From: Bacteroidetes bacterium GWA2_40_15
GTDB taxonomy: Bacteria > Bacteroidota > Bacteroidia > Bacteroidales > VadinHA17
Length of the DNA stretch: 64,000 bases
NCBI GenBank assembly: GCA_001768195.1
Contig: MENI01000021.1
Location: 44,239-108,238 of the forward strand
Direction: 5' to 3'
In this document: positions 15,696 to 45,434 of the stretch, piece after piece
Position numbering within the stretch: position 1 is the stretch's first letter
Layout: every line of letters begins with the position of its first letter
The notes under the pieces: generated by a model
What the model saw: the letters and a program-made list of their open reading frames with translations, nothing else
Database searches by the model: none
Told to the model about the DNA's origin: nothing
Program-made: the position numbers and the translations under genes

Positions 15696-16010
15696 GCTTG
15701 GCTCCAATCGAAGAGGCCGATTTTTTTTTGCCGAAAAAATCCGGCAGGGCTGGTTAAACAGAAAAAGGAGGGGTTAATGAATTTTTTTCATGATTTATCA
15801 GGCAAAAGCTGACATTTTTAATAGATAATGTAGAAAATATCAACATATGTTGAATAAATAAACAATCGAATCAATACGCTTATTTTACAGTGGTTTGAGA
15901 GTATAAAAAATATACACTGTATATAAATTCAACACATTGGTGTCGGGATAAGTTCCGGAGAATAATGTGTAAATATCATAAAAACAAGGTATTAGGCCTT
16001 GTTTTTTTAT
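15696..16010 (+). terminator. Intergenic region with two terminator-like hairpins and a palindromic site
   Basis: This 315-bp stretch has no gene I can support. An imperfect hairpin GCCGATTTTTT/AAAAAATCCGGC (15716-15745) follows yifB. A perfect 14-bp palindrome TCAACATATGTTGA lies at 15840-15853, and a related half-site TCAACACATTGGTG lies at 15929-15942. GTATA-N5-TATAC is at 15901-15915. At 15981-16008, AAAACAAGG-N7-CCTTGTTTT followed by more Ts is a good intrinsic terminator. It insulates the downstream promoter or ends a short transcript made from within the region. Confidence 0.6.
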
Positions 16011-16027
16011 TTGGCACCATCCTTGGT
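16011..16027 (+). promoter_or_regulatory. Candidate sigma-54 promoter of the redox cluster
   Basis: TTGGCACCATCCTTGGT fits the sigma-54 pattern TGGCAC-N5-TTGC: the -24 GG is at 16013-16014 and the -12 element at 16025-16026, with exact spacing. Only the -12 C is changed, to G. It follows an intrinsic terminator directly and is 81 bp from the first gene of the cluster. The cluster encodes an NtrC-type activator, and the palindrome at 15840-15853, about 160 bp upstream, is a possible activator site. Confidence 0.6.
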
Positions 16028-16108
16028 AATAAGGAATCTGAGAGAATGATCAGCCAGAATAAAGAAATGAGGAAAAATCAAAAAAATAAGAATAAATAAC
16101 ATATAGCT

Positions 16109-17782
16109 ATGAAAAGGTCATTTGTCTTTTTAACCGGTTTATTGATCTTCAGCAGCAGTCTGATATACGGCAGATCTTCTCCGGTATCAGATACGTTGAG
16201 GATTATGAGTACCCCTGATCTGTATCCTCTTGCGTCAGCATGGGCTGAGAATTATGGCTCTGTAACCACAGGAGTGAGCGTAAAGGTAATCATGGCCTCT
16301 GACATTAAAGAAGCTGAAGATTTGATCAGCAGAGGGATGATTGGTTTTGTTTCAGCCAGAAATTATCCCGGTTTCAGAAATGGATCAGGATGGAACACAA
16401 TTATAGGGCGGGATATCATTGTTCCGGTAATAAGTAATCAGAATCCGGCTCTTGAAAAAATAAATCAGCATGGCTTGTCAGCTGTTGTGTTGTTGCAAAT
16501 AATGAACAACAAGAATGGAGAAAAGTGGAATTCGATAATTACTGACTCTGAAAATGCACCTGTAAATTATTACTGGGTAAAGGATGAATCAGTAATAGCC
16601 GGTCTTGCAGGATTTCTCGGAACCGATAAAATAAACATGGCAGGTAGAGAGGTTACCGGCAGCGAAGCTCTGATCACAGCAATTCGAAAAGATCCTTATG
16701 GAATAGGTTTTTGCAGGCTTACTGGTGTGGCAGACTTGAAAAATCAGACTCTGGCAGAGGGATTAAGCTTTTTGCCAATTGACAACAACAATAATGGCAC
16801 TCTTGATTACAGTGAAAAAATCTATGGTGACTTTAACCAGTTGTCAAGAGGCATATGGATCGGCAAATATCCGAAAAGCCTCTGTTCAAATATCTATGCT
16901 GCAGGTATAAGCCAGCCTGAAGGCGAAGCAACTGTTGCTTTTCTGAGATGGGTGCTCACCGACGGCCAGAAATTCCTTTATGATAATGGTTACAATGATC
17001 TTCTGATTACCGAGAGACAAAAATCTGTTGACCGGTTATATGAAACAGAAGTATTTACTACAGCTGTGTCAGAAGCAAGGTCTCCGTTTGTTGTCCTTCT
17101 GTTTCTGTTTGCAGCAGCGCTTGTTATAGTTATAACTGTCAGCCAGGTAGTAAAATATGAAGGAAGATCCAGGAGCATCTCTACTGTATTGCTCCCGCAA
17201 TCCGACAGGGTGTTTGGTGAATCTGCAGTTTTAATACCCCAGGGTCTCTATTTTGACAAGGCACACACCTGGGCCTTCATGGAACAGGATGGAATGGTGA
17301 AGATAGGGATTGATGATTTCCTGCAGCATATAACAGGTACGATCACCAGGGTTAAAATGAAGAAAGATGGCAGTAAAGTCAAGAAAGGGGAACAGATTCT
17401 CTCACTCATACAGAATGGAAAGCATCTCGATCTCTACGCACCTGTTTCAGGTACAATCAGAGAACATAACTCAGTTCTTGAAACCAATTCAGACCTCATA
17501 AATTCCTCTCCATATAATGAAGGCTGGGTTTATAAAATAGAGCCGTTGAACTGGCACAGGGAAATCCAGTTATTGTTCTATGCCGAAAAATACAGACAAT
17601 ACCTGACTCAGGAATTCTCGCGTCTTAAGTGTTTTCTGACAACAGTTCTTAATGCAGGAAATGAGAAATACAGCCATGCGGTGCTCCAGGACGGAGGTGA
17701 AGTAAGTGACGGGGTCCTTTCACAAATGGGACCGGAAGTATGGGAAGATTTCCAGACAAATTTTGTTGATATGTCAAAATAA
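16109..17782 (+). CDS. PstS-like periplasmic domain fused via a membrane helix to a GcvH-like domain
   Basis: A 557-residue fusion. Signal peptide 1-21. Residues about 28-315 resemble PstS/PBP-like-2 solute-binding proteins (LRIMSTPDLYPLASAWAENYG, then GREVTGSEALITAIRKDPYGIGF, later YPKSLCSNIYAAG). One helix spans about 328-350. Residues about 365-490 match glycine-cleavage H protein: HTWAFMEQDGMVKIGIDDF, LYAPVSGTI and SPYNEGWVYKIEP, with Lys438 in NGKHLDLYAP at the lipoyl-lysine position. A final segment (LQDGGEVSDGVLSQMGPEVWEDFQ) is shared with the protein at 19961 and is not part of H protein. The H-like domain would be cytoplasmic. No glycine-cleavage or phosphate-transport genes are nearby, so neither textbook role is supported. 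It is the first gene of the cluster. Confidence 0.85.
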   Translation: MKRSFVFLTGLLIFSSSLIYGRSSPVSDTLRIMSTPDLYPLASAWAENYGSVTTGVSVKVIMASDIKEAEDLISRGMIGFVSARNYPGFRNGSGWNTIIGRDIIVPVISNQNPALEKINQHGLSAVVLLQIMNNKNGEKWNSIITDSENAPVNYYWVKDESVIAGLAGFLGTDKINMAGREVTGSEALITAIRKDPYGIGFCRLTGVADLKNQTLAEGLSFLPIDNNNNGTLDYSEKIYGDFNQLSRGIWIGKYPKSLCSNIYAAGISQPEGEATVAFLRWVLTDGQKFLYDNGYNDLLITERQKSVDRLYETEVFTTAVSEARSPFVVLLFLFAAALVIVITVSQVVKYEGRSRSISTVLLPQSDRVFGESAVLIPQGLYFDKAHTWAFMEQDGMVKIGIDDFLQHITGTITRVKMKKDGSKVKKGEQILSLIQNGKHLDLYAPVSGTIREHNSVLETNSDLINSSPYNEGWVYKIEPLNWHREIQLLFYAEKYRQYLTQEFSRLKCFLTTVLNAGNEKYSHAVLQDGGEVSDGVLSQMGPEVWEDFQTNFVDMSK

Positions 17783-17832
17783 CAACATTTTTTTTAAAAT
17801 GGTCTTTTAATAAGTAACTAAAATTATGAATT

Positions 17833-18702
17833 ATGAGTGTTGATCGACGAAATTTTTTAAAAGCTCTGGGGATCGCCGGGAGCACGCTTGCAATGGGGAA
17901 GAGCTTTGGCTCCCCGCCTGTTAGTAAGAGTGATACAGAGTTCTTCGGGATTCTATATGATTCAACGCTTTGCGTTGGCTGTCAGGCTTGTGAAACTGCA
18001 TGCGCTGAAAAATACGGATTTCCTTTACCTGAGACTGTGCCAGCGGCTGGAGAATTACGTGAAACCAATGAGGCAAGACGCGTAGTTATCAATTGTTATA
18101 ATACCTCCAAAGGGGAGATGTATATGAGAAGGGCTTGTAACCATTGTAACAATCCTGCCTGTGCATCAGCATGTCTCACAAAAGCAATGCTGAAAACCGA
18201 TGGGGGTCCTGTGATCTGGCGTGAAGAAAAATGCATGGGATGCAGGTCATGTATGATTTCATGTCCGTTCGATATACCAAAGTTTGAATACAACAGTCCG
18301 AATCCGAAAATAAATAAGTGCAGAATGTGTTATGAACTTCTACTGGAAGGTGAAAAACCGGTTTGTGTTGAGAATTGCCCGGCAGAAGCCCTCCTTTTCG
18401 GGAAAAGAAGAGACCTTATAGAGATTGCAAGAACCAGGATCTATTCAGAACCTGATAAATATTATCACGAAATATACGGAGAGAATGAAGTTGGTGGAAC
18501 CGGAGTACTTTATATCAGTTCAGTTCCTTTTAAGGAATTGGGATTGAGGACTGATCTGGGAAACAAATCGTATCCGGAATATAACAAGACATTCCTCTAT
18601 TCGGTTCCACTTGTACTGATACTCTGGCCGGCATTTTTACTTGGTCTGCATAGCGCTTTTGTTCAAGGGAAAAATAAGAAACAAAAAGAAGAAGAGTCAT
18701 GA
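17833..18702 (+). CDS. Tat-exported ferredoxin-type electron-transfer subunit (HybA-like)
   Basis: A 289-residue iron-sulfur protein. The N-terminus has a twin-arginine signal, DRRNFLKALGIAGSTLAMG. Four Cys clusters follow, enough for four [4Fe-4S] centres: CVGCQACETAC (about residue 48), CNHCNNPACASAC, CMGCRSCMISC, and CRMCYELLLEGEKPVCVENC. A C-terminal helix (FLYSVPLVLILWPAFLLGL, about 255-275) anchors it to the membrane, as in HybA. It should pass electrons between an unknown periplasmic partner and the NrfD/HybB-type subunit encoded next, whose start overlaps its stop by four bases. Hydrogenase or molybdopterin catalytic subunits, normal partners of this family, are absent here. Confidence 0.93.
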   Translation: MSVDRRNFLKALGIAGSTLAMGKSFGSPPVSKSDTEFFGILYDSTLCVGCQACETACAEKYGFPLPETVPAAGELRETNEARRVVINCYNTSKGEMYMRRACNHCNNPACASACLTKAMLKTDGGPVIWREEKCMGCRSCMISCPFDIPKFEYNSPNPKINKCRMCYELLLEGEKPVCVENCPAEALLFGKRRDLIEIARTRIYSEPDKYYHEIYGENEVGGTGVLYISSVPFKELGLRTDLGNKSYPEYNKTFLYSVPLVLILWPAFLLGLHSAFVQGKNKKQKEEES

Positions 18703-19982
18703 ACAGAGAAGAAAACACTGGGTTTTTAAAATTCATCATGTATGAATTAAAACCTAAAGGAAAATTGTTAACTCCCTTCAATATAATTTCCATGATTACA
18801 ATACTGGCAGCGGTAGTTATTCTGGTAATTCGTTTTACAAGTGGTTTGGGTTCAGTCGGACATGCTTCCCAGGAACGTCCATGGGGGCTATGGATTAATT
18901 TCAACGTAATCACAGGTGTCGCTTTTGCCGGAGGAGCTTTTGTCGTCACATTCATGGTATATATTCTGGGACTGGAGAAATACCGTCCAATTGTCAGAGC
19001 AACAGTACTGTATGCTCTGCTCGCCTATATCTTTTATGCGGGTGCACTTTTGCTTGACCTGGGGCGCCCCTGGAAGGTTATAAACCCAATTATTGGTAAC
19101 TCCTTTGGAATAAGCTCTGTCCTGTTTCTTGTTGCATGGCATTTCCTTCTTTATATGGGTTCATTATTTATTGAGTTCTTCCCGACTGTAACTGAATGGA
19201 TTTCCCTGAAGCCTCAACGAAGATTCTTTGCTTCGCTTACCCTTGGCGTTGTAATATTTGGAATCGCACTCTCCACTTTACATCAATCCGGTCTTGGTGC
19301 ACTTTTTCTAATGGCTAAGCCGAAGATACATCCTCTGTGGTATTCAGAGTTCATACCTATTCTTTTCTTCCTGTCAAGTATATTTGCAGGACTTTCATTG
19401 GTAATAGTTTTAGAGACTATTGGTCAGAGAGTATTCGGTAAAAACATGTCATTTTTAAATAAAAGTTCCCACAGGGATATAATGTTAAGCCTTTCAAGAA
19501 TTTGTACAATATCAATGTTCGTTTATTTCTTTATGACAGTACTGGTTTTTTTGCATGGCAAGAATTTTCAATATCTTAATACGCTGTGGGGTTCATGGTA
19601 TCTTGTTGAAGTCCTGGGGTTTGTGTTATTTCCCTGTATATTGTTCCTGTTTGGATACAGGCGACTCAATATAAAATTAGTTCGTATCGGAGCAGTATTG
19701 ACAATAATAGGAATCATCCTGAACAGACTCAATATCTCGACTATCGCATATCACTGGTATGACAGTGCATTGCATTTTCCGACATGGATGGAAATTGTAG
19801 TAAGTTTTGCAGTAATATTTCTCCAGATCCTGGTATTCCGGGCGATTGTCAGAAGAATGCCGGTATATACAGAATCTCCATCCTGGGTAGTTGAAGAAAA
19901 ACAAATCAGATCGATCACAGTTAAAGACAAATTGTTCAAATTAAATACAAGGAGGGAAAAATGGAAAGTTTCAGCAGAGTAG
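18699..19982 (+). CDS. NrfD/HybB-family quinone-interacting membrane subunit
   Basis: A 427-residue integral membrane protein with about ten helices. The N-terminal pattern GLWINFNVITGVAFAGGAFVVTFMVYILGLEKYRPIVRATVL and LLLDLGRPWKVINPI is characteristic of HybB and related NrfD proteins that exchange electrons with the quinone pool. The middle part has WHFLLYMGSLFIEFFP and STLHQSGLGALFLMAKPKIHPLWYSEFIPI, also family hallmarks. It carries no haem or Fe-S motif. Its start is coupled to the ferredoxin gene (ATGA overlap) and its end overlaps the next gene by 22 bp, so all three are one translational unit. Confidence 0.93.
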   Translation: MNREENTGFLKFIMYELKPKGKLLTPFNIISMITILAAVVILVIRFTSGLGSVGHASQERPWGLWINFNVITGVAFAGGAFVVTFMVYILGLEKYRPIVRATVLYALLAYIFYAGALLLDLGRPWKVINPIIGNSFGISSVLFLVAWHFLLYMGSLFIEFFPTVTEWISLKPQRRFFASLTLGVVIFGIALSTLHQSGLGALFLMAKPKIHPLWYSEFIPILFFLSSIFAGLSLVIVLETIGQRVFGKNMSFLNKSSHRDIMLSLSRICTISMFVYFFMTVLVFLHGKNFQYLNTLWGSWYLVEVLGFVLFPCILFLFGYRRLNIKLVRIGAVLTIIGIILNRLNISTIAYHWYDSALHFPTWMEIVVSFAVIFLQILVFRAIVRRMPVYTESPSWVVEEKQIRSITVKDKLFKLNTRREKWKVSAE

Positions 19983-20683
19983 ATATTTTCGATACAAAAG
20001 GAATTGAATATCTGTTTGTTATCGGTTATTTATTATTCCTGATCATTTTCTGGAATATAGCTAACCGGCATGAAAGAATGATAACGCAAGTTAAAAAAAT
20101 GATGAACACTCTTTCTGCCGGTATTCTAAGAATTCCACAAGGATTATTCTACAACAGGTATCATACCTGGACCCATCTTGAAGAATCCGGAGCAGCAAAA
20201 GTAGGAATGGATGATTTTCTTCAGCATGTCATTGGAGAAGTAAAATTCACCCTGCTTAAGAAGCCTGGTGAACTGGTCGAAAAAGGAGAAATAATGACAC
20301 AAATCAATCGGGATGGCAAGCACCTCAAAATCTTTTCACCTATTTCGGGAGTAATTCTGAAGTCAAACTCATTACTCAATGAGAATCCTGAGATCTTAAA
20401 TGAAGATCCATATGAAAAAGGTTGGATTTATAAAATCAAACCATCTGATTGGAGAAAAGATATAAATACATATTTTTTGGCTGAAGAGGCAACAAAATGG
20501 GCAACAAATGAACTGGAAAGATTTAAAGAGTTTCTGACCGGAGGGGCGATGAGAAAATATTCCAGCGAGCCTTCAATGATATTATTACAGGATGGGGGTG
20601 AAATAAGAGACAATGTGCTTTCCGATCTGCCTGATGAAGTGTGGATAGATTTCCAGAAGCTATTTCTGAATTTTGGTCATTAA
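19961..20683 (+). CDS. Membrane-anchored GcvH-like protein
   Basis: A 240-residue protein with an N-terminal membrane helix (about residues 13-34, YLFVIGYLLFLIIFWNIAN) and a cytoplasmic domain like glycine-cleavage H protein (about 55-165): HTWTHLEESGAAKVGMDDFLQHVIGEV, FSPISGVIL, and NEDPYEKGWIYKIKP. Lys120 in DGKHLKIFSP occupies the lipoyl-lysine position. The C-terminal 70 residues (LQDGGEIRDNVLSDLPDEVWIDFQ) are shared with the PstS-GcvH fusion at 16109, so this module recurs twice in the operon. A purine-rich AGGAGGGAAAA, unusual for this phylum, lies just before the start. It overlaps the NrfD gene. Function unknown; it may carry a lipoyl arm for electron or thiol transfer at the membrane. 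Confidence 0.85.
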   Translation: MESFSRVDIFDTKGIEYLFVIGYLLFLIIFWNIANRHERMITQVKKMMNTLSAGILRIPQGLFYNRYHTWTHLEESGAAKVGMDDFLQHVIGEVKFTLLKKPGELVEKGEIMTQINRDGKHLKIFSPISGVILKSNSLLNENPEILNEDPYEKGWIYKIKPSDWRKDINTYFLAEEATKWATNELERFKEFLTGGAMRKYSSEPSMILLQDGGEIRDNVLSDLPDEVWIDFQKLFLNFGH

Positions 20684-20694
20684 AAAATAATTTT

Positions 20695-20726
20695 AAAACC
20701 GGTGTCTGTAATCACCGGTTTTTTTT
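20695..20726 (+). terminator. Intrinsic terminator after the redox genes
   Basis: AAAACCGGTG, an 8-base loop, then CACCGGTTTTTTTT. It starts 11 bases after the GcvH-like stop and separates the four redox genes from the sensor kinases. It also shows that the GTG at 20702 cannot be the start of the next gene, since that lies in the stem. Confidence 0.9.
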
Positions 20727-20761
20727 GTATTTTGTATAGGACAACAGCTTATCATTATTTT

Positions 20762-22447
20762 TTGGGATTAAATCACAAAAAGAGATTAAATTATACATCA
20801 AAAAAGGTGACTGATTTAAAAAGAAGAATAAAATTCCGATCCACAATTTATGGTCAGGTTGTCCATATTATCACAATATTGTCTGTTTTTCTGTTTTTAT
20901 CATTCGGTACCATATTCAGAACCATAAACAAGGAATATCTGAATACGGTAATACAACAAAACGGGAACAATATCGGGTCTATTGTTGAGGGAGCTTTATA
21001 CCATTCAATGCTCACAAATGACAGAAGTGCCCTTCGAAATACACTTGATGTTATTAATACATTACCGGGCATTGAAGATGTGAACATGTATGATTCTCAG
21101 GACAATCTTGTCTATTCACCCTTCTCATCCGATTCAGTCGGGTACAACAATCCGAACTGTAAAGATTGCCACACCAATATCAATACCATGTTTTCCAGAA
21201 AAACAAAGTCTTTCAGAATTGTGAGTCTTGACAGTGAATGTGAAATGAGCAAAAAAGCTTACGATTTCAGACTCCTGCTAATCAGGTCACCTATACTAAA
21301 TGAAAAATCCTGTTATACAAGTTCCTGTCATGCCCATAAGGAAAGTGATGACTTGCTGGGTTCATTTGTTATAAGAATACCTCTGGAAGATCTTGATAAA
21401 TCAGTTAAAAAGTCTTCTACGAATTTTTTCCTGCTTGCCGCCCTGACAACTATTTTAATGTTAACATTTTTAATGTTTTTCACGAGGAGGAAAATAAAGA
21501 ATCCATTAAATGCAATAATAATGGCCAGTGAAGCTGTTTCGAGAGGTGATATAAGTAAAAGACTGGAGATTAAACCCAATCAGTTGAACGACATCAATAT
21601 GGTTTCCAGCGCATTTAATGAGATGCTTGATAATCTGGCTTCGGCATCGAACGAGTTACAGAATTGGTCACAGCAACTTGAATATAAAGTACAAAAAAAA
21701 TCAGAAGAATTATCTGAAATACAAAATGAATTGATACATGTTGAGCGGATAGCTTCGCTTGGTAAATTATCCTCCTCTGTAGCACATGAAATAAATAATC
21801 CGTTATCGGGTGTTTTAACATATACTAAGTTAGTTCAGAAACAAATACATAAGCTTACATTGGATGATGCCGAAAAGATGCCAATGTTAAAATATTTAAA
21901 AGTGATTGAAGAAGAGACAAAACGTTGTGGCGACATCGTTAAGGGCTTACTGGATTTTTCAAGAAAGGATCAACAAGACTTTAAAATTAACCAGCTGCAC
22001 AAAATTTTAAGGGAATCTTACTCTTTGATGGAACACCAGATGAAGATGGCGAACATTAATTTTTTCACAGATTTTTCAGCCGGTTGCGATTTGGTAAATA
22101 GTAGTGAGAATCAAATAAAGCAGGCTTGTATTGCCATTCTGCTGAATGCTTCCGAAGCCATTTTTGAGAATGGCGAAATTCTGATGAAAACCAGTAACCC
22201 GGATGAAGATAATATCATGATCGAAATAAGGGATAATGGTATAGGAATTGCGCCTGAAGATATTCCTCATATTTTTGAGCCATTTTTCTCTACCAAGGGA
22301 AAGGCAACCGGGATAGGGCTGGGATTGGCAATTGTTCATGGTATTGTACAAAACCACAATGGGAAAGTGGAAGTAGATTCTGAATTGGGGAAGGGAACAA
22401 CTATTTCTATTATTTTACCTGTAATTAATGATCAGAAATTGTTTTAA
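20762..22447 (+). CDS. Sensor histidine kinase with putative c-type-haem periplasmic domain (copy 1)
   Basis: A 561-residue membrane kinase. Two helices (about 36-56 and 220-240) flank a periplasmic domain of roughly 160 residues. That domain contains CKDCH (residues 133-137), a conserved CEMS motif, and CYTSSCH (184-190): the CxxCH and CX4CH patterns of covalent haem attachment. HAMP (about 245-295, ending NEMLDNL), coiled coil, HisKA with SSSVAHEINNP (His342) and HATPase (DNGIGIAPEDIPHIFEPF, GIGLGLAIVHG) follow. I use a TTG start at 20762, because LGLN there aligns with the MGLNN start of the paralogue at 22500 and upstream GTG 20702 lies in a terminator; GTG 20807 is an alternative. It probably reports redox state or a haem ligand to the NtrC-type regulator at 24169. 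Confidence 0.88.
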   Translation: MGLNHKKRLNYTSKKVTDLKRRIKFRSTIYGQVVHIITILSVFLFLSFGTIFRTINKEYLNTVIQQNGNNIGSIVEGALYHSMLTNDRSALRNTLDVINTLPGIEDVNMYDSQDNLVYSPFSSDSVGYNNPNCKDCHTNINTMFSRKTKSFRIVSLDSECEMSKKAYDFRLLLIRSPILNEKSCYTSSCHAHKESDDLLGSFVIRIPLEDLDKSVKKSSTNFFLLAALTTILMLTFLMFFTRRKIKNPLNAIIMASEAVSRGDISKRLEIKPNQLNDINMVSSAFNEMLDNLASASNELQNWSQQLEYKVQKKSEELSEIQNELIHVERIASLGKLSSSVAHEINNPLSGVLTYTKLVQKQIHKLTLDDAEKMPMLKYLKVIEEETKRCGDIVKGLLDFSRKDQQDFKINQLHKILRESYSLMEHQMKMANINFFTDFSAGCDLVNSSENQIKQACIAILLNASEAIFENGEILMKTSNPDEDNIMIEIRDNGIGIAPEDIPHIFEPFFSTKGKATGIGLGLAIVHGIVQNHNGKVEVDSELGKGTTISIILPVINDQKLF

Positions 22448-22499
22448 ATATAACCTGATTAGCAACAGTGTCTTTTTAATTTATGTAGTAAATATTGCG

Positions 22500-24167
22500 A
22501 TGGGATTAAATAATATGAAATCACATAGAGATAGAAAATTAGTATCAGAATTTAAGGCTTTTATTAAATCCTTTTCATCGATTTATGGGCAGGTGGTTTT
22601 AATCATCGCGATATTATCTGTATTTCTTTTTATTTCGTTTGGGACAATTTTCAGAACAGTAAATAAGGAATATATGGAAAATACTATCCAGCAAAGTGGT
22701 AACAATGTGTGTATGTTTGTTGAAGGCGCTTTGTATCAGCATATGCTGGAGAACGATAAAACGGCATTAATAAATACCCTTAATATAATTAATAAAATGC
22801 CTGGTATCGAGGATGTTAATATGTATGATGATAAGGATAATCTGGTTCATTCATCCTTCCCCAATGATTCACTGGCCCACGGTAATCCAAATTGTAAAGT
22901 CTGCCATGAGAATTTTACTTCCATGTTTCCTCGAAAAGAAAAATCTTTTAAGATCATAAATGTTGACAGCAAATGTGATATGAGCCCTAAAGATTACAGT
23001 TTCAGGCTTCTCTTAATCAAATCACCCATTTTAAATGAAAAGTCGTGTTATACAGGCAGCTGTCATGCTCATAAGGAAAGTGATGAAGTGCTCGGTTCCC
23101 TGGTTATCAGGATCCCTCTGGAAGATCTTGATGCAAACCTGAATAAGTCTTCATTATTAGCTGTAACGACAACAATATTGCTGGTGACTTTATTAATATA
23201 TTTCACCAAAATAAAAATCAAAAATCCATTAAAAGCCATAATAAAAGCCAGTGAAGCTGTTTCAAAAGGTGATAAAAGTAAAAGACTGGAAGTAAAATCC
23301 AATCAGTTGAACGACATCAATATGGTTTCCAGCGCATTTAATGAGATGCTTGATAATTTGCAATCGGCAACTACCGAGTTGCAAAATTGGTCACAACAGC
23401 TTGAATATAAGGTACAGAAGAAGTCAGAAGAGTTATCGGAAATACAAAATGAATTGATACATATTGAACGGATAGCATCGCTTGGCAAATTATCCTCTTC
23501 TGTTGCACATGAAATAAATAATCCGTTGGCAGGTGTTTTAACATATACAAAGTTGGTTCATAAGCAACTGAGCAAGCTTGAAGTAGATGGCGCCGATAAA
23601 ATACCAATGTTGAAATATTTGAAAGTGATCGAAGAAGAAACAAAACGTTGCGGTGAGATTGTTAAAGGCTTGCTGGATTTTTCAAGAAAAGATCAGCTGA
23701 ACTTTGAAAGCAAAACTCTGCACAGAATATTAAACGAAGCTTATTCTTTAATGGCCCACCAGATGAAAATAGCAAATGTCAGCTTTGTTACAGATTTTGC
23801 TGCCAGCCGGGATTTAATATTTTGTAGTGAGAATCAAATTAAGCAAGCCTGTATTGCAATTCTGATGAATGCATCTGAAGCTGTTTTTGATAACGGGGAA
23901 ATTCTGATGAAGACGAGTAATCCCGACAAAAATAATATTAGACTTGAAATATCAGATAATGGAGTAGGCATTGATCCTGAGGATATTCCGCACATTTTTG
24001 AACCTTTTTTCTCTGCCAAGAAAAAAGCAAGTGGTGTTGGATTAGGATTAGCCATTGTCCATGGAATTATTCAAAGTCATAATGGGAAAATAGAAGTTGA
24101 TTCTAATTTGGGAAAGGGAACAACTATATCTATTATTTTACCTTTAATAATGAATAAAAAGAAATAA
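22500..24167 (+). CDS. Sensor histidine kinase with putative c-type-haem periplasmic domain (copy 2)
   Basis: A 555-residue paralogue of the kinase before it, closely similar throughout, so the two arose by tandem duplication. The periplasmic domain keeps CKVCH (132-136), CDMS, and CYTGSCH (183-189). HAMP, HisKA with SSSVAHEINNP (His337) and HATPase (DNGVGIDPEDIPHIFEPF, GVGLGLAIVHG) are intact, so both copies should be active kinases. I start at the ATG at 22500 (MGLNNMK); a frame extending to 22428 overlaps the end of copy 1 and is probably untranslated. The response-regulator gene begins one base after its stop. Divergence is greatest in the linker between the second helix and the haem-like domain. 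Confidence 0.9.
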   Translation: MGLNNMKSHRDRKLVSEFKAFIKSFSSIYGQVVLIIAILSVFLFISFGTIFRTVNKEYMENTIQQSGNNVCMFVEGALYQHMLENDKTALINTLNIINKMPGIEDVNMYDDKDNLVHSSFPNDSLAHGNPNCKVCHENFTSMFPRKEKSFKIINVDSKCDMSPKDYSFRLLLIKSPILNEKSCYTGSCHAHKESDEVLGSLVIRIPLEDLDANLNKSSLLAVTTTILLVTLLIYFTKIKIKNPLKAIIKASEAVSKGDKSKRLEVKSNQLNDINMVSSAFNEMLDNLQSATTELQNWSQQLEYKVQKKSEELSEIQNELIHIERIASLGKLSSSVAHEINNPLAGVLTYTKLVHKQLSKLEVDGADKIPMLKYLKVIEEETKRCGEIVKGLLDFSRKDQLNFESKTLHRILNEAYSLMAHQMKIANVSFVTDFAASRDLIFCSENQIKQACIAILMNASEAVFDNGEILMKTSNPDKNNIRLEISDNGVGIDPEDIPHIFEPFFSAKKKASGVGLGLAIVHGIIQSHNGKIEVDSNLGKGTTISIILPLIMNKKK

Positions 24168-24168
24168 A

Positions 24169-25509
24169 ATGGCAAAAAACATTTCAATTCTAATTGTTGA
24201 CGATGAAGATTCTGTAAGAGAATCATTATACAACTGGTTCATCGAAGACGGGTATAACGTCGGCTGTGCTGAAAACGCCAAGCAAGCTTTGTCAATTCTT
24301 GAATCGAAGAATTTTGATATCATCCTTGCTGACATTAAGATGCCCGGAATGGATGGTCTGGAAATGCACAGACGAATCAGATCTTTAAATAAAGATGCGA
24401 TTGTGATTATAATGACAGCTTTTGCATCGGTAATCACTGCTGTTCAGGCTTTAAAAGACGGAGCATATGATTATATTACAAAGCCCTTTGACCCTGACGA
24501 CCTGTCGCATTTAATCAGAAATGCAGCCAGACAGATTACCTTAAAATCAGAAAATGAGGCTTTAAGAAATAAAATTGTTTCATTGGAGAATGTTGAAGAT
24601 CTTATCGGGAACAGTGAAGCGATGATAAAGGTTCTTAAAGAGATTGAGAGAGTAGCGCAATCAAATTCCCCGGTCATTATTACAGGGGAGAGCGGTACAG
24701 GCAAGGAACTTGTTGCAAGAGCTATTCATTCCAATTCGCAACGTAAATTTTCACCATTAGTCAGTGTACATTGCGGCGCTTTGACTGAAAGCTTGCTTGA
24801 AAGTGAATTATTCGGGCATGAAAAAGGAGCATTCACGGGTGCTATGTTCAATCGTAAAGGGCGGTTCGAGATGGCGGATGGTGGAACCATTTTCCTCGAT
24901 GAAATTGCTACCATTTCTCCTAAAATGCAAATTGAATTACTACGTGTGCTGGAAACAAAAACTTTTGTACGGGTAGGGGGTAATAAAGAAATTACGTCCG
25001 ATTTCAGGGTTATTTGCGCATCAAATAAAGATTTGAATCAAATGGTGAAAAACGGAACTTTTCGTGAAGACCTCTATTACCGGTTAAATGTTGTAAACAT
25101 TAAGATTCCTCCACTTCGTGAGAGAATTGAAGATATTCCCATGCTTGTGGATCATTTCATTAAAGTTTATTGTACTTCCATGAGCAGAAATATTATGTCA
25201 ATTGACAAAGCGGCACTGAAACGCCTTGAAACATATGACTTCCCGGGGAATATTCGTGAACTTGAAAACATGATTGAACGCGCAATTGTAATTGGAAATG
25301 AAAAGGAAATCCGTTTAAAGGATCTTCCATTTGAAAGAGATGTTGCCAGCAGTTCCATCGAAAGCCTGGACGACCTCGAAAAGAAATTCATACTTCAGAT
25401 TCTAAATAAATACGACTGGAATATATCCCGTTCGGCAAAAGCCCTGAAAGTGGATAGAGTTACGCTTTACAACAAAATAAAGAAATATGACCTAAAGCCT
25501 TCGAAATAA
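24169..25509 (+). CDS. NtrC-family sigma-54-dependent response regulator
   Basis: A 446-residue activator. The receiver domain (1-120) has phosphoacceptor Asp55 in ILADIKMPG and Lys105 in YITKPFDP. The AAA+ domain (about 140-375) has Walker A GESGTGKEL, the sigma-54-contact loop GAFTGA, Walker B GGTIFLDEIA and the arginine-finger region FREDLYYRLNV. The Fis-type DNA-binding domain (about 405-446) ends WNISRSAKALKVDRVTLYNKIKKY. It sits directly after the two haem-type sensor kinases and should be phosphorylated by them. Its likely target is the sigma-54-like promoter at 16011 ahead of the redox genes; this link is inference. Confidence 0.96.
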   Translation: MAKNISILIVDDEDSVRESLYNWFIEDGYNVGCAENAKQALSILESKNFDIILADIKMPGMDGLEMHRRIRSLNKDAIVIIMTAFASVITAVQALKDGAYDYITKPFDPDDLSHLIRNAARQITLKSENEALRNKIVSLENVEDLIGNSEAMIKVLKEIERVAQSNSPVIITGESGTGKELVARAIHSNSQRKFSPLVSVHCGALTESLLESELFGHEKGAFTGAMFNRKGRFEMADGGTIFLDEIATISPKMQIELLRVLETKTFVRVGGNKEITSDFRVICASNKDLNQMVKNGTFREDLYYRLNVVNIKIPPLRERIEDIPMLVDHFIKVYCTSMSRNIMSIDKAALKRLETYDFPGNIRELENMIERAIVIGNEKEIRLKDLPFERDVASSSIESLDDLEKKFILQILNKYDWNISRSAKALKVDRVTLYNKIKKYDLKPSK

Positions 25510-25546
25510 CAATAATAATTCACATATTCACAAAGTCCGGGATTAA

Positions 25547-26107
25547 TTGAATGAGCATAGTATTTTATTAATTTCTCATGGTCATTTCGAGAATGATTTT
25601 CTTGAGAAGCTGGCAAGGGAGGTGACACGCGAATTTCTTCTTCCGGTTTCCATTGAAGAAAGTCATATAGATTTGGATGAGTTTTATGATCCTATGCGAC
25701 GGCAATATAATGGTAACAAAATAATAAAAAAGATCGATTCAATGTCATCAAACCAATTTATCAAAAAGGTTGGACTATTCCGGGTAGATTTATTTATTCC
25801 CATCCTCACCTATATTTTTGGACAGGCAGTTTTAAATGGTACTACAGGAATTTCATCGCTGTACCGGCTGCGAAACGAACAATACGGGATGAAAAAGGAT
25901 GATGATTTGCTGTTTGACCGCTTCAGAAAAGTGATTATTCATGAACTGGGCCATACCTTTGGGCTAGTTCACTGCAATGTTCCAACCTGTGTTATGAGAT
26001 CGAGTACATATGTTGAAGACATCGATCAGAAAGATATTAGAATATGCAGTCATTGCCGGACTTTATTAAGCGAAACAACACCATCATTTTCCAACTATAA
26101 AACATGA
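25547..26107 (+). CDS. Archaemetzincin-family zinc metalloprotease
   Basis: A 186-residue protein with the full archaemetzincin (M54) signature: HELGHTFGLVHC (His132, Glu133, His136, His142, Cys143), then Cys148 and Met150 in CVM, then CSHC (Cys167, Cys170). This gives one catalytic zinc and one structural zinc. The N-terminal ILLISHGHFEND fits the family fold. There is no signal peptide, so it is cytoplasmic. The start is a TTG, as no in-frame ATG occurs before residue 50. It lies 37 bp after the response regulator, so it may belong to the same transcript. Substrates of bacterial archaemetzincins are not known to me. Confidence 0.9.
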   Translation: MNEHSILLISHGHFENDFLEKLAREVTREFLLPVSIEESHIDLDEFYDPMRRQYNGNKIIKKIDSMSSNQFIKKVGLFRVDLFIPILTYIFGQAVLNGTTGISSLYRLRNEQYGMKKDDDLLFDRFRKVIIHELGHTFGLVHCNVPTCVMRSSTYVEDIDQKDIRICSHCRTLLSETTPSFSNYKT

Positions 26108-27393: not shown

Positions 27394-28512
27394 ATGGAGC
27401 TTACGCGCATTATACGCGACAAAATGATGAAGGAACGCCTTATGTTCGCGTACAGGGGCGTGGTGACCAATGAAAATTCTGTTCCGCTCCTGATGCTCCT
27501 TGAAAATGAGATGAAGAGTTCGGAATACGGATATCTGGGACGAAAGAGACTTTTTATGTTCGTTCTTGAAAGCCTTCAGAACGTGCAAAGGCACAGTAAC
27601 AAAAATCAGCACGCCAATATGTCCCTTGTTGTCTATTCAAAAACTGACAACGGGTATACTGTCAGTACAGGAAATGTGATCCCCAATGAGAATATAGATA
27701 TCTTAAAATCAAAGCTTGATGAGGTTAACAATCTGGCGACCGAGGATATCAGAAATGTCTACAGGCAGATGCTGAATAACGCTGAACTGAGCAGTAAGGG
27801 AGGAGCAGGTCTCGGGCTGATTGAAATGGCCAAGAAAACAGGGAACAGGCTCGACTATGCTTTTTACACTATTAACAAAGAATTCTCTTATTATATATTA
27901 AGTAAGACCGTTGATTCAGGCGGTACAGGTTCACATGATTCAGAAAAAGGAGGACAGTTTGACGGGACATCTGTTACCCTGCTTGAAAAACTGATGGATG
28001 AAAAGGATATATATCTGATCTGGTCGGGTCATGTCTCCCCTGAAGTGGGGAAGGAAGTTATCTCTTTTGCTGAGACAAAACTTACGGAACAGGATATTGA
28101 GGGCAGACAAAGAAAAAGAGTGTTCAGTACACTTGTTGAATTGCTTGACAATGTGGGGAATTACAGTCCTGGCCGGGAAGTAGAAGAAAAATACGGAAAG
28201 CCTTTTGCCATGATCAGGCTGGTTGGCAGGGTATACTATCTCAGTACCGGGAATCTTATCCTCAAATCCAAGGTTGTACAGCTGAAAGAGAAGCTGGACG
28301 CCGTCAATAAGCTGGATAAGGATGGGCTCAAAGAGATGTTTATAAAATCACTGACCGATCAGGAAAGCGATATCGACAGCACAGGGAATATGGGGTTGAT
28401 AGAGATGGTTAAAAAATCAGGAAATAAGCTGACTTACATTTTTGAGGATATAAATGAAGAGTATTCCTACTATATGCTTACTGTCGGTGTTAAAGAAAAC
28501 ATTAACAGTTAA
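27394..28512 (+). CDS. Tandem-duplicated SiaB-family (DUF6272) kinase-like protein
   Basis: A 372-residue protein made of two SiaB-like domains. Domain 1 (about 1-170) has FVLESLQNVQRHSNK, YTVSTGNVIPNENI and GAGLGLIEMAKKTGNRLDYAFY. Domain 2 (about 188-367) has STLVELLDNVGNYSPG, YYLSTGNLILKSKV and GNMGLIEMVKKSGNKLTYIFE. SiaB is a single-domain GHKL-fold protein kinase that phosphorylates SiaC; most relatives are about 180 residues, so this is a doubled form. Domain 2 has lost the glycine-rich GAGLG lid, keeping NMG. A SiaC-like protein is encoded at 9.7 kb. The 3' end overlaps the convergent hydrolase gene by four bases. Confidence 0.83.
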   Translation: MELTRIIRDKMMKERLMFAYRGVVTNENSVPLLMLLENEMKSSEYGYLGRKRLFMFVLESLQNVQRHSNKNQHANMSLVVYSKTDNGYTVSTGNVIPNENIDILKSKLDEVNNLATEDIRNVYRQMLNNAELSSKGGAGLGLIEMAKKTGNRLDYAFYTINKEFSYYILSKTVDSGGTGSHDSEKGGQFDGTSVTLLEKLMDEKDIYLIWSGHVSPEVGKEVISFAETKLTEQDIEGRQRKRVFSTLVELLDNVGNYSPGREVEEKYGKPFAMIRLVGRVYYLSTGNLILKSKVVQLKEKLDAVNKLDKDGLKEMFIKSLTDQESDIDSTGNMGLIEMVKKSGNKLTYIFEDINEEYSYYMLTVGVKENINS

Positions 28513-44018: not shown

Positions 44019-45434
44019 ATGAATGTAACAATTGATACAATGCGTTACCGGGTCAAAGATATCTCCCTGGCGGAATTCGGACGTAAAGAGATTGAAATAG
44101 CTGAAAAAGAAATGCCGGGATTGCTGGCAATAAGAAAGAAATATTCATCTGAGAAGCCGCTGAAAGGGGCACGTGTAACCGGTTCTTTGCACATGACAGT
44201 TCAGACGGCGGTATTAATCGAGACTCTTGCAGAACTTGGCGCCGATGTACGCTGGGCAAGCTGTAATATATTTTCAACCCAGGATCATGCTGCTGCTGCA
44301 ATAGCTGCAGCGGGAATTCCGGTATTTGCGTGGAAGGGTGAAACACTTGAAGAGTACTGGTGGTGTACCGATCAGGCTCTTGCATTTCCGGAAGGTAAAG
44401 GTCCTCATCTTATTGTTGATGATGGAGGAGATGCTTCACTGATGGTGCATCTTGGCTACAGGGCTGAGAAAAACCCTGAATTACTTGACAAAAAACCCGA
44501 TTCAAGGGAAGAAGCTATCATCCTTTCGACACTGAAAGATATTCTCACAAAAGATCCTCATAGATGGCACCGGGCAGTAACCGACCTTAAAGGTATATCG
44601 GAAGAGACAACAACAGGAGTGCACCGCCTTTACCAGATGATGGAGAATGGAGAATTACTTGTACCTGCGATAAATGTAAATGATTCTGTAACAAAATCAA
44701 AGTTCGACAATCTTTACGGATGCCGTGAATCGCTTGCTGATGGTATTAAAAGAGCAACTGATGTTATGATAGCCGGGAAAGTAGTTGTTGTATGCGGTTA
44801 TGGCGATGTTGGAAAAGGCTGTGCAAGGTCAATGAAGTCTTACGGAGCAAGGGTTATTGTTACGGAAATCGATCCTATATGCGCACTTCAGGCTGCTATG
44901 GAAGGATTTGAAGTGAAGACGGTTGAAGAGACTCTTTATGAAGGTAATATTTATGTAACTGCAACCGGTAACAGGGATGTGATTACCGTTGAGCATATGA
45001 AGAAAATGAAAGATCAGGCAATTGTATGTAATATCGGTCATTTCGATAATGAGATACAGGTAGACAATCTTAATGATCTGAAAGGTGTAAAGAAGATAAA
45101 TATTAAGCCGCAGGTTGATAAGTATGTTTTTCCCGATGGACATTCAATTTTTATGCTGGCAGAGGGAAGGCTGGTAAACCTTGGATGCGCTACAGGCCAT
45201 CCATCCTTTGTAATGAGCAACTCATTCAGCAATCAGACACTTGCCCAGATTGACCTGTGGCAGAAAAACTACAAGATCGGAGTTTACAGGTTATCTAAAG
45301 AACTGGATGAAGAGGTTGCCCGTCTGCACCTCGAACAGCTTGGTGTTAATCTTACCAGGCTCACAAAGGATCAGGCTGAATATATAAGTGTTCCTGTTGC
45401 AGGTCCGTATAAGCCTGACCATTACAGGTATTAG
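44019..45434 (+). CDS. ahcY: Adenosylhomocysteinase
   Basis: A 471-residue NAD-dependent S-adenosyl-L-homocysteine hydrolase, which recycles the by-product of methylation to adenosine and homocysteine. Landmarks: [65 protein letters not shown] (adenosine/catalytic region), the NAD-binding [24 protein letters not shown], and the C-terminal tail KPDHYRY with the conserved Lys and Tyr. It has the roughly 40-residue insert of the longer bacterial class ([24 protein letters not shown]). Confidence 0.98.

Follow-up and report, generated by a model that had tools for sequence, protein, structure and literature searches.

The described systems closest to the locus reported here are the quinone-linked Hmc and Nhc complexes of sulfate reducers, the HybA/HybB pair of hydrogenase-2 and the Qrc complex. 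In E. coli HybB, replacement of R89, Y99, E148 or H184 is reported to lower hydrogen oxidation, and these residues have been tied to ion translocation (PMC8076601). On the sensory side, haem-bearing Cache domains are on record, and those fused to signalling parts are described as behaving as nitric oxide (NO) sensors (PMC12889525, a preprint); for the archaemetzincin (M54) family, one account states that very little is known of its biological importance (PMC3427221). Here we describe a run of eight genes, of seven kinds, that brings proteins related to such components together with GcvH-like proteins. It lies in a window (the whole stretch of DNA analysed, 64,000 nucleotides, positions 44,239 to 108,238 of contig MENI01000021.1) from Bacteroidetes bacterium GWA2_40_15. 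Our preferred reading, which we rate as an even call, is that of an autoregulated redox operon, in which a control set would be tied to a quinone-linked pair of proteins; the putative redox pair and the predicted promoter are, as parts of that reading, well supported. The features are listed below (TM, transmembrane segment; Tat, twin-arginine translocation).

15829..15845, + strand: enhancer-like palindrome 1, TGTTG-N7-CAACA with one mismatch (sequence pattern)
15848..15864, + strand: enhancer-like palindrome 2 (sequence pattern)
15918..15934, + strand: enhancer-like palindrome 3, with two mismatches (sequence pattern)
16011..16027, + strand: sigma-54-type -24/-12 promoter, TTGGCAC-N5-TTGG (pattern match)
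16109..17782, + strand: PG, a PstS-like-TM-GcvH protein (profiles and model; TM and topology by eye), made up of a signal peptide, a PstS-like periplasmic domain (16175-17068), a TM (17081-17152) and, C-terminally, a GcvH-like domain (17237-17611) and an LQDGGE domain (17612-17779)
17833..18702, + strand: FeS, HybA/HmcB-like, with Tat signal, 16 cluster cysteines and a C-terminal TM
18699..19982, + strand: NrfD, HybB/HmcC-like membrane quinone subunit (profiles, residues)
19961..20683, + strand: GcvL, with an N-terminal TM (20000-20065), a GcvH-like domain and an LQDGGE domain
20702..22447, + strand: HK1, kinase with periplasmic sensor, HAMP, HisKA and HATPase; CxxCH at 21158-21172, CX4CHAH at 21311-21337
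22428..24167, + strand: HK2, HK1 duplicate; CxxCH at 22893-22907, CX4CHAH at 23046-23072
24169..25509, + strand: RR, NtrC-type regulator, GAFTGA at 24826-24843
25547..26107, + strand: AMZ, archaemetzincin, HExxHxxGxxHCx4CxMx16CxxC at 25940-26056

The eight genes and their families stand where an initial annotation of this DNA had placed them, and Pfam and NCBIfam profiles agree with it. Its two overlaps, of 4 and 22 base pairs (bp), are likewise confirmed and belong to FeS/NrfD and NrfD/GcvL, respectively; HK1 and HK2 overlap by a further 20 bp. The start of the unit, set at 16011 in that annotation, has to be moved, with enhancer-like sites lying 5' of it from 15829 onward.

To see how far this arrangement is shared, we compared it across Bacteroidota genomes, mostly uncultured. 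A search of 118 genomes of the family, whose returns did not include the window's own copy, gave PG-like fusions in 31. Twenty regions around these fusions comprised 11 with the complete order PG-FeS-NrfD-GcvL-HK-RR-AMZ, three cut by a contig end, five reading PG-HK-RR-AMZ, and one in which other genes replace FeS and NrfD. A second scan of named genomes, of which the best 80 of 277 relatives were used (all titled Bacteroidota, several of the loci coming from the same genomes as the family loci), returned the complete order in 50 of the 80, 46 with a single kinase and four with two. Elsewhere among the 80, HK-RR-AMZ precedes PG in one locus, and FeS, NrfD and GcvL are jointly absent from four. 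The remaining 25 include 21 in which the stretch ends within 900 bases (among them L128, which reads PG-HK, and L065, without a called FeS gene); the other four either lack a called FeS gene (L060, L102) or are incomplete internally (L090, L109). The initial annotation's proposal of one system is thus upheld by an order repeated in relatives more often than chance would give: seven kinds of gene in fixed order form a true unit. Since two kinases occur in only four of the 80 named loci, and these four sit closest to the window in a quick tree, the second kinase is, from its sequence distribution, a local duplication.

Among the 31 named loci with sequence on either side, a flanking family is seen three times at most, so the unit runs from PG to AMZ, without a conserved catalytic neighbour. 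On the same count we rejected a hidden catalytic subunit beside the unit. A polysulfide-reductase-like molybdoenzyme cluster does lie upstream of two loci, L063 and L102 (its Fe-S family is also found in L083), which is too rare for a partner. These two clusters, directly upstream of the unit at L063 2095-8429 and L102 2116-8397, comprise a molybdoenzyme (Pfam, on the L063 copy), an Fe-S protein, an NrfD-like protein, and, by eye, two YeeE-like membrane proteins and two rhodanese-like proteins. A plasmid search for named relatives in other groups showed no sign of the module among the matches listed, which were GcvH-like proteins mostly annotated gcvH (15 of 138) and HybB-like proteins (15 of 15). 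The gene set is also undescribed in the literature found by our search, in which subscription journals are thinly covered. PMC12419801 reports an operon that joins a GcvH-like lipoyl carrier to VanZ and SprA; it differs from this set.

The first element is the redox pair. FeS belongs to the Fer4 family and has a Tat signal (model score 21.7 against a cut-off of 16.7), and its 16 cysteines, enough for four clusters, are kept in all 68 sequences compared and all align with those of HybA. NrfD matches the NrfD profile, and in 66 sequences the equivalents of the functional HybB residues are nearly invariant: R89 is arginine in 65 and lysine in one, and Y99, E148 and H184 are kept in every one. With the cluster cysteines and these four residues retained, quinone-linked electron transfer by the Fe-S/NrfD pair is likely, which bears out the initial annotation's quinone-linked pair lacking a catalytic subunit, none being conserved beside the 31 loci. 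Among known systems, the top-scoring profiles are HmcB for FeS (303 bits) and HmcC for NrfD (361.8 bits), and both proteins share the quinone-to-periplasmic-cytochrome topology of Hmc and Nhc, although they stay under the HmcB and HmcC cut-offs (420 and 550) and the main form of the unit lacks an HmcA-like hexadecahaem cytochrome. To our knowledge, GcvH-like proteins, c-haem kinases and archaemetzincins are not among the parts of Hmc. The likeness to hydrogenase-2, apparent in the aligned cysteines and the four HybB residues, is similarly limited, as the unit has no hydrogenase genes and scores 214 of 263 for HybA and 207 of 450 for HybB.

The second element is the GcvH-like domain, which occurs in both PG and GcvL. 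PG yields a GCV_H match (96.8 bits), a sub-threshold periplasmic-binding match and a C-terminal stretch without Pfam match, and GcvL consists of a TM followed by GCV_H. In the predicted model of the GcvH-like and C-terminal domains (pLDDT 89.4), an H-protein fold is followed by helices, and the former superimposes on 1onl with a TM-score of 0.91 by target. Alignment with solved H proteins nevertheless puts glycine at the lipoyl-lysine position against the lysine of GcvH, and the model sets N60-G61 at the hairpin tip. Across 53 sequences this column is glycine in 44 and lysine in one, with lysine (42) or arginine (9) in the next; lipoylation of the domain is, on this glycine, unlikely. A lipoyl lysine moved by one place blocks lipoylation in model domains. 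The window's domains thus share the fold and profile of GcvH and differ from it in the missing lysine, the membrane tether and the extra C-terminal domain, and a normal GcvH, its lipoyl motif intact by eye, is encoded elsewhere in the same genome (L031). As for the initial annotation's "PstS-GcvH fusion", the GcvH half holds, whereas the PstS half is only a distant PstS-like binding domain, below the cut-offs of TIGR02136 (16.8 of 206.6) and PBP_like_2 (19.3 of 27), with phosphate-binding proteins as its top PDB relatives (E 1.7e-8). Judged by eye, other families of the phylum have a first gene for a TM-GcvH protein that lacks any PstS-like domain, and their second GcvH protein frequently carries a four-cysteine motif at its N-terminus. 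This motif (for example at L165 11299-12126 and L170 10509-11357) is a possible metal or Fe-S site.

Both kinases show the HAMP-HisKA-HATPase architecture in Pfam and NCBIfam, and the c-haem-type sensors that the initial annotation had seen in their CxxCH motifs (residues 153-157 of HK1, 156-160 of HK2) are supported. Each kinase has in addition a CX4CHAH motif (204-212 and 207-215), so that two c-haems per kinase, beyond the earlier claim, are possible. CxxCH and CHAH are kept at 95% or more in 68 kinases; a separate alignment of 41 sensors was picked for CHAH and hence does not test its conservation. The sensor model, of intermediate confidence (pLDDT 75), takes a periplasmic Cache/PAS-like fold carrying the CxxCH and is nearest, with low TM-scores, to the c-haem sensor GSU0935 (E 5.5e-5) and to WalK (TM-score 0.51). 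It thereby resembles the sCache_heme (DUF3365/Tll0287) sensors such as GSU0935, in fold and in having a c-haem motif in a periplasmic kinase sensor, and differs from them by its second motif; no match to the sCache_heme/DUF3365 Pfam family appears in the window's kinases at E 0.01. RR has all features of an NtrC-type regulator: a receiver (REC), a sigma-54 interaction domain of the AAA+ type with GAFTGA, and a Fis-type helix-turn-helix.

Where this regulator might act is suggested by the DNA before PG. The element read from the upstreams is TTGGCAY-N5-TTG, with the -24 part kept and the -12 part usually TTGA rather than TTGC. In the form TGG[CT]A-N6-TTG it precedes 68 of 71 PG genes against 14 of 325 control upstreams; as this form was chosen on the same loci, the real test lies in the controls and in the other genes of the unit, where it is rare (FeS 1/71, NrfD 0/67, GcvL 1/62, HK 0/65, RR 3/62, AMZ 0/57). 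By itself the sequence is no more than chance would provide, TGGCAY-N5-TTG having a single match in the 64-kb window against 1.6 expected. It is accompanied by the palindrome TGTTG-N7-CAACA, present with at most two mismatches in all 69 upstreams with a -24 element (68 loci plus the window), three times in 35 of them and twice in 22, most commonly near -182, -163 and -93 from the -24 element. Two or more palindromes precede 69 of 71 PG genes against 18 of 325 controls, and next to none of FeS (1/71), NrfD (0/67), GcvL (2/62), HK (1/65) or RR (0/62). A looser pattern, used without a control run, finds a comparable element at most 120 bases 5' of the leading GcvH gene at 8 of 18 loci from the phylum's other families, three of the eight carrying TTGC. 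The sigma-54 control proposed in the initial annotation thus gains a candidate promoter and enhancer-like palindromes before PG, alongside the NtrC-type RR inside the unit. At about 15984-16010, between the palindromes and the -24 element and just 5' of the latter, a terminator-like hairpin and then a run of T were noticed by eye.

To ask where else such sites occur, we scanned genomes with two patterns, judging from position which matches belong to module promoters. The composite pattern gave 10 matches in 23 genomes, seven at module promoters and three elsewhere (reversed control, 0), and tandem palindromes gave 16 places in 34 genomes, 10 at module promoters and six elsewhere (reversed control, 6). 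Sensitivity was low, the module promoter being found in just 7 of 23 and 10 of 34 genomes, respectively. We read both scans as indicating mainly self-regulation, though a wider regulon may exist.

The last gene of the unit, AMZ, scores 158.7 bits against the NCBIfam archaemetzincin cut-off of 145, and its zinc and cysteine motif (HExxHxxGxxHC-C-M-CxxC) is complete in the window and in 71 of 74 relatives from two overlapping locus sets. Compared with other M54 proteins it has X16 instead of X17 before CxxC, the latter as given in PMC3427221. It is further set apart by its surroundings, as a kinase-regulator pair stands beside all but two AMZ genes in the loci examined. Among loci gathered through the GcvH-like domain, every AMZ gene (57/57, 17/17 and 15/15 in three sets, of which the first two overlap) has HK and RR on its own strand at a distance of at most 3 kb; where the regions were chosen mostly for AMZ itself, this is true of 11 of 13. 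The two exceptions, L204 7705-8574 and L205 7003-7872, encode 289-residue AMZ proteins, are of the window's class and have no adjacent kinase or regulator. Across 395 genomes of the phylum, AMZ is present in 30 of the 33 that have a GcvH-plus-C-terminal domain but in 24 of the other 362, counted from two listings in which we judged which matches reach the C-terminal part; 20 of these 24 belong to the window's own class, among them the two with the longer AMZ.

The strongest clue to the role of the set comes from sister systems, in which the redox genes are exchanged. At L046, in a genome without an NrfD relative, a multihaem cytochrome and a cytochrome b-GcvH-like fusion take the place of FeS and NrfD. 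Six loci (L177, L178, L181, L197, L206, L207) read FeS-NrfD-multihaem cytochrome-kinase-REC.GcvH-TM.REC.GcvH with no AMZ in the set, and L198 is a rearranged form of it; L177 and the L198 cytochrome were assigned by Pfam, the others by likeness to L177 and by reading. The kinases of three of these (L177 10303-12153, L178 5304-7175, L181 13165-15033) show by eye a zinc-ribbon-like insert in the ATPase part, and in L181 an AMZ-type and a receiver-GcvH-type module stand back to back in one genome. At L199, L200, L203 and L208, Qrc-like genes are bordered on one side or on both by GcvH-like proteins, with HK-AMZ-RR adjoining, an arrangement seen in part in L195 and L196; at L199, QrcD (589.5 vs 570) and QrcA (231.8 vs 180) exceed their cut-offs, whereas L200 and L203 were checked by Pfam only and L208 by arrangement only. 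The window itself differs from Qrc in lacking QrcA and QrcB, and its NrfD scores 69 against QrcD. HK-RR-AMZ also occurs alone (L193, L194) or near a multihaem cytochrome (L202). In the loci examined, then, what varies is a complex of the quinone:cytochrome c type, which may also be absent, and what usually stays is the sensor, the regulator and the GcvH-like domain. The refuting condition named in the initial annotation, a known catalytic subunit adjoining homologous clusters, thus has a mixed outcome: none is conserved in the 31 loci with both flanks, but sister clusters in the phylum carry known electron-transfer partners, either multihaem cytochromes or a Qrc complex. This favours cytochrome c as the partner over a catalytic function of GcvH.

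The best common reading of these arrangements is a redox-sensing control set for interchangeable quinone:cytochrome c complexes. In the window, the Fe-S/NrfD pair would link the menaquinone pool, by electron transfer, to multihaem cytochromes whose genes lie elsewhere, and the kinase haems would read the redox state of periplasmic cytochromes, or NO. The kinase would then phosphorylate the regulator, which would switch on its own operon; the GcvH-like domains may face the cytoplasm and have a docking or regulatory function, and AMZ would probably trim or clear a component of the set. Where the NtrC regulator is missing from the sister systems, two receiver-GcvH fusions occupy its place, so the GcvH-like domain itself is probably the kinase output. 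It is tempting to speculate further that this lipoate-free H-protein fold, with the C-terminal domain attached to it, is a new signalling domain linking two-component signalling to NrfD-type quinone:cytochrome c complexes, with a periplasmic haem kinase controlling both electron flow and transcription and AMZ as a proteolytic arm, a tentative idea to which we give somewhat less than even chances. The proposed domain would come membrane-tethered, fused to cytochrome b and fused to phospho-receiver domains. Such a reusable control set, accompanying four different quinone:cytochrome arrangements (FeS-NrfD; FeS-NrfD-multihaem cytochrome; Qrc; cytochrome b plus multihaem cytochrome), would imply a non-carrier role for the GcvH fold and give bacterial archaemetzincins a genomic context. 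The defined promoter with its palindromes also opens the regulator's target to direct tests in cultured Sunxiuqinia, of which S. dokdonensis (L073) and S. elliptica (L130) have the whole unit.

Several observations weigh against our preferred reading. The main form of the module encodes no partner cytochrome; of 32 module genomes, 31 have cytochrome c7 matches, compared with 50 of the 86 remaining genomes in the family (in G013, one match is the module's own cytochrome), an association that fits a multihaem partner yet may reflect ancestry or genome size. PG-HK-RR-AMZ persists in eight genomes in which a search at E 1e-10, covering NrfD but neither FeS nor GcvL, gave no NrfD relative (two of the eight genomes are 75-78% complete, and full-form controls were positive in 3/3), which makes the redox pair not essential to the set; on the same search we rejected relocation of NrfD elsewhere in these genomes. 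In a quick tree of 68 rows, the eight short rows require seven changes, and repeated loss of the redox trio with retention of the control set would be the simplest reading. The strict promoter pattern TGG[CT]N7TTGC precedes only 1 of 71 PG genes against 9 of 325 controls, two or more palindromes precede AMZ in 8 of 57 loci, above the control rate, and with three of 10 composite matches off-module and none in the reversed control, other targets are possible. The TM-score to GSU0935 is low (0.34 by query), and QrcB (326 of 440) and QrcC (368 of 400) of L199 fall below their cut-offs. Finally, the role of AMZ and the kinase signal are guesses, and contacts among the proteins of the set are hypothetical.

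How do other explanations fare against these data? The Fe-S/NrfD pair might be non-respiratory and form a sensor complex that relays the redox state of the quinone pool to the kinase haems. This would suit the two c-haem motifs per kinase in the periplasm, where FeS would lie, the promoter scans that both indicate mainly the operon itself, and the lack of a conserved catalytic or cytochrome partner adjoining the main form. We consider it possible but rather unlikely, as the kinase of the eight short-form genomes is independent of NrfD, the Qrc genes or multihaem cytochromes of the sister sets look respiratory, and the HybB-type ion-path residues are kept. Less probable still is a ligand-sensing two-component system, for which TorT/TorS is a precedent, in which the PstS-like domain of PG would bind an oxyanion and work with the kinase, the redox trio being optional cargo. 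PG does stay with HK-RR-AMZ when the trio is absent (in loci all collected via PG), and the phosphate-binding proteins are indeed the best structural relatives of its binding domain; however, this domain is the least conserved part of PG, and the first gene elsewhere in the phylum is only TM-GcvH, which excludes ligand binding as the common function.

The initial annotation had suggested instead that the GcvH-like domains replace or serve the catalytic part, perhaps with a lipoyl arm. A lipoyl arm in place of a catalytic subunit has the H-protein fold in its favour. We rejected it on the glycine that alignments and model alike place at the lipoyl-lysine position: lysine occupies that column in a single sequence, and the lysine or arginine that follows one place later in 51 of 53 is, given the block by such a shift, no substitute, which leaves it very improbable. 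That the genes are chance neighbours in separate operons has next to no probability, for although each family is common by itself, the synteny of 50 of the 80 named loci and of other families of the phylum refutes it.

Of the genes around the unit, one 3' of it in the window (27394-28512) encodes a 372-residue protein with, by eye, two similar halves, and a relative of it lies near AMZ in five close family loci (L034, L036, L037, L039, L041).

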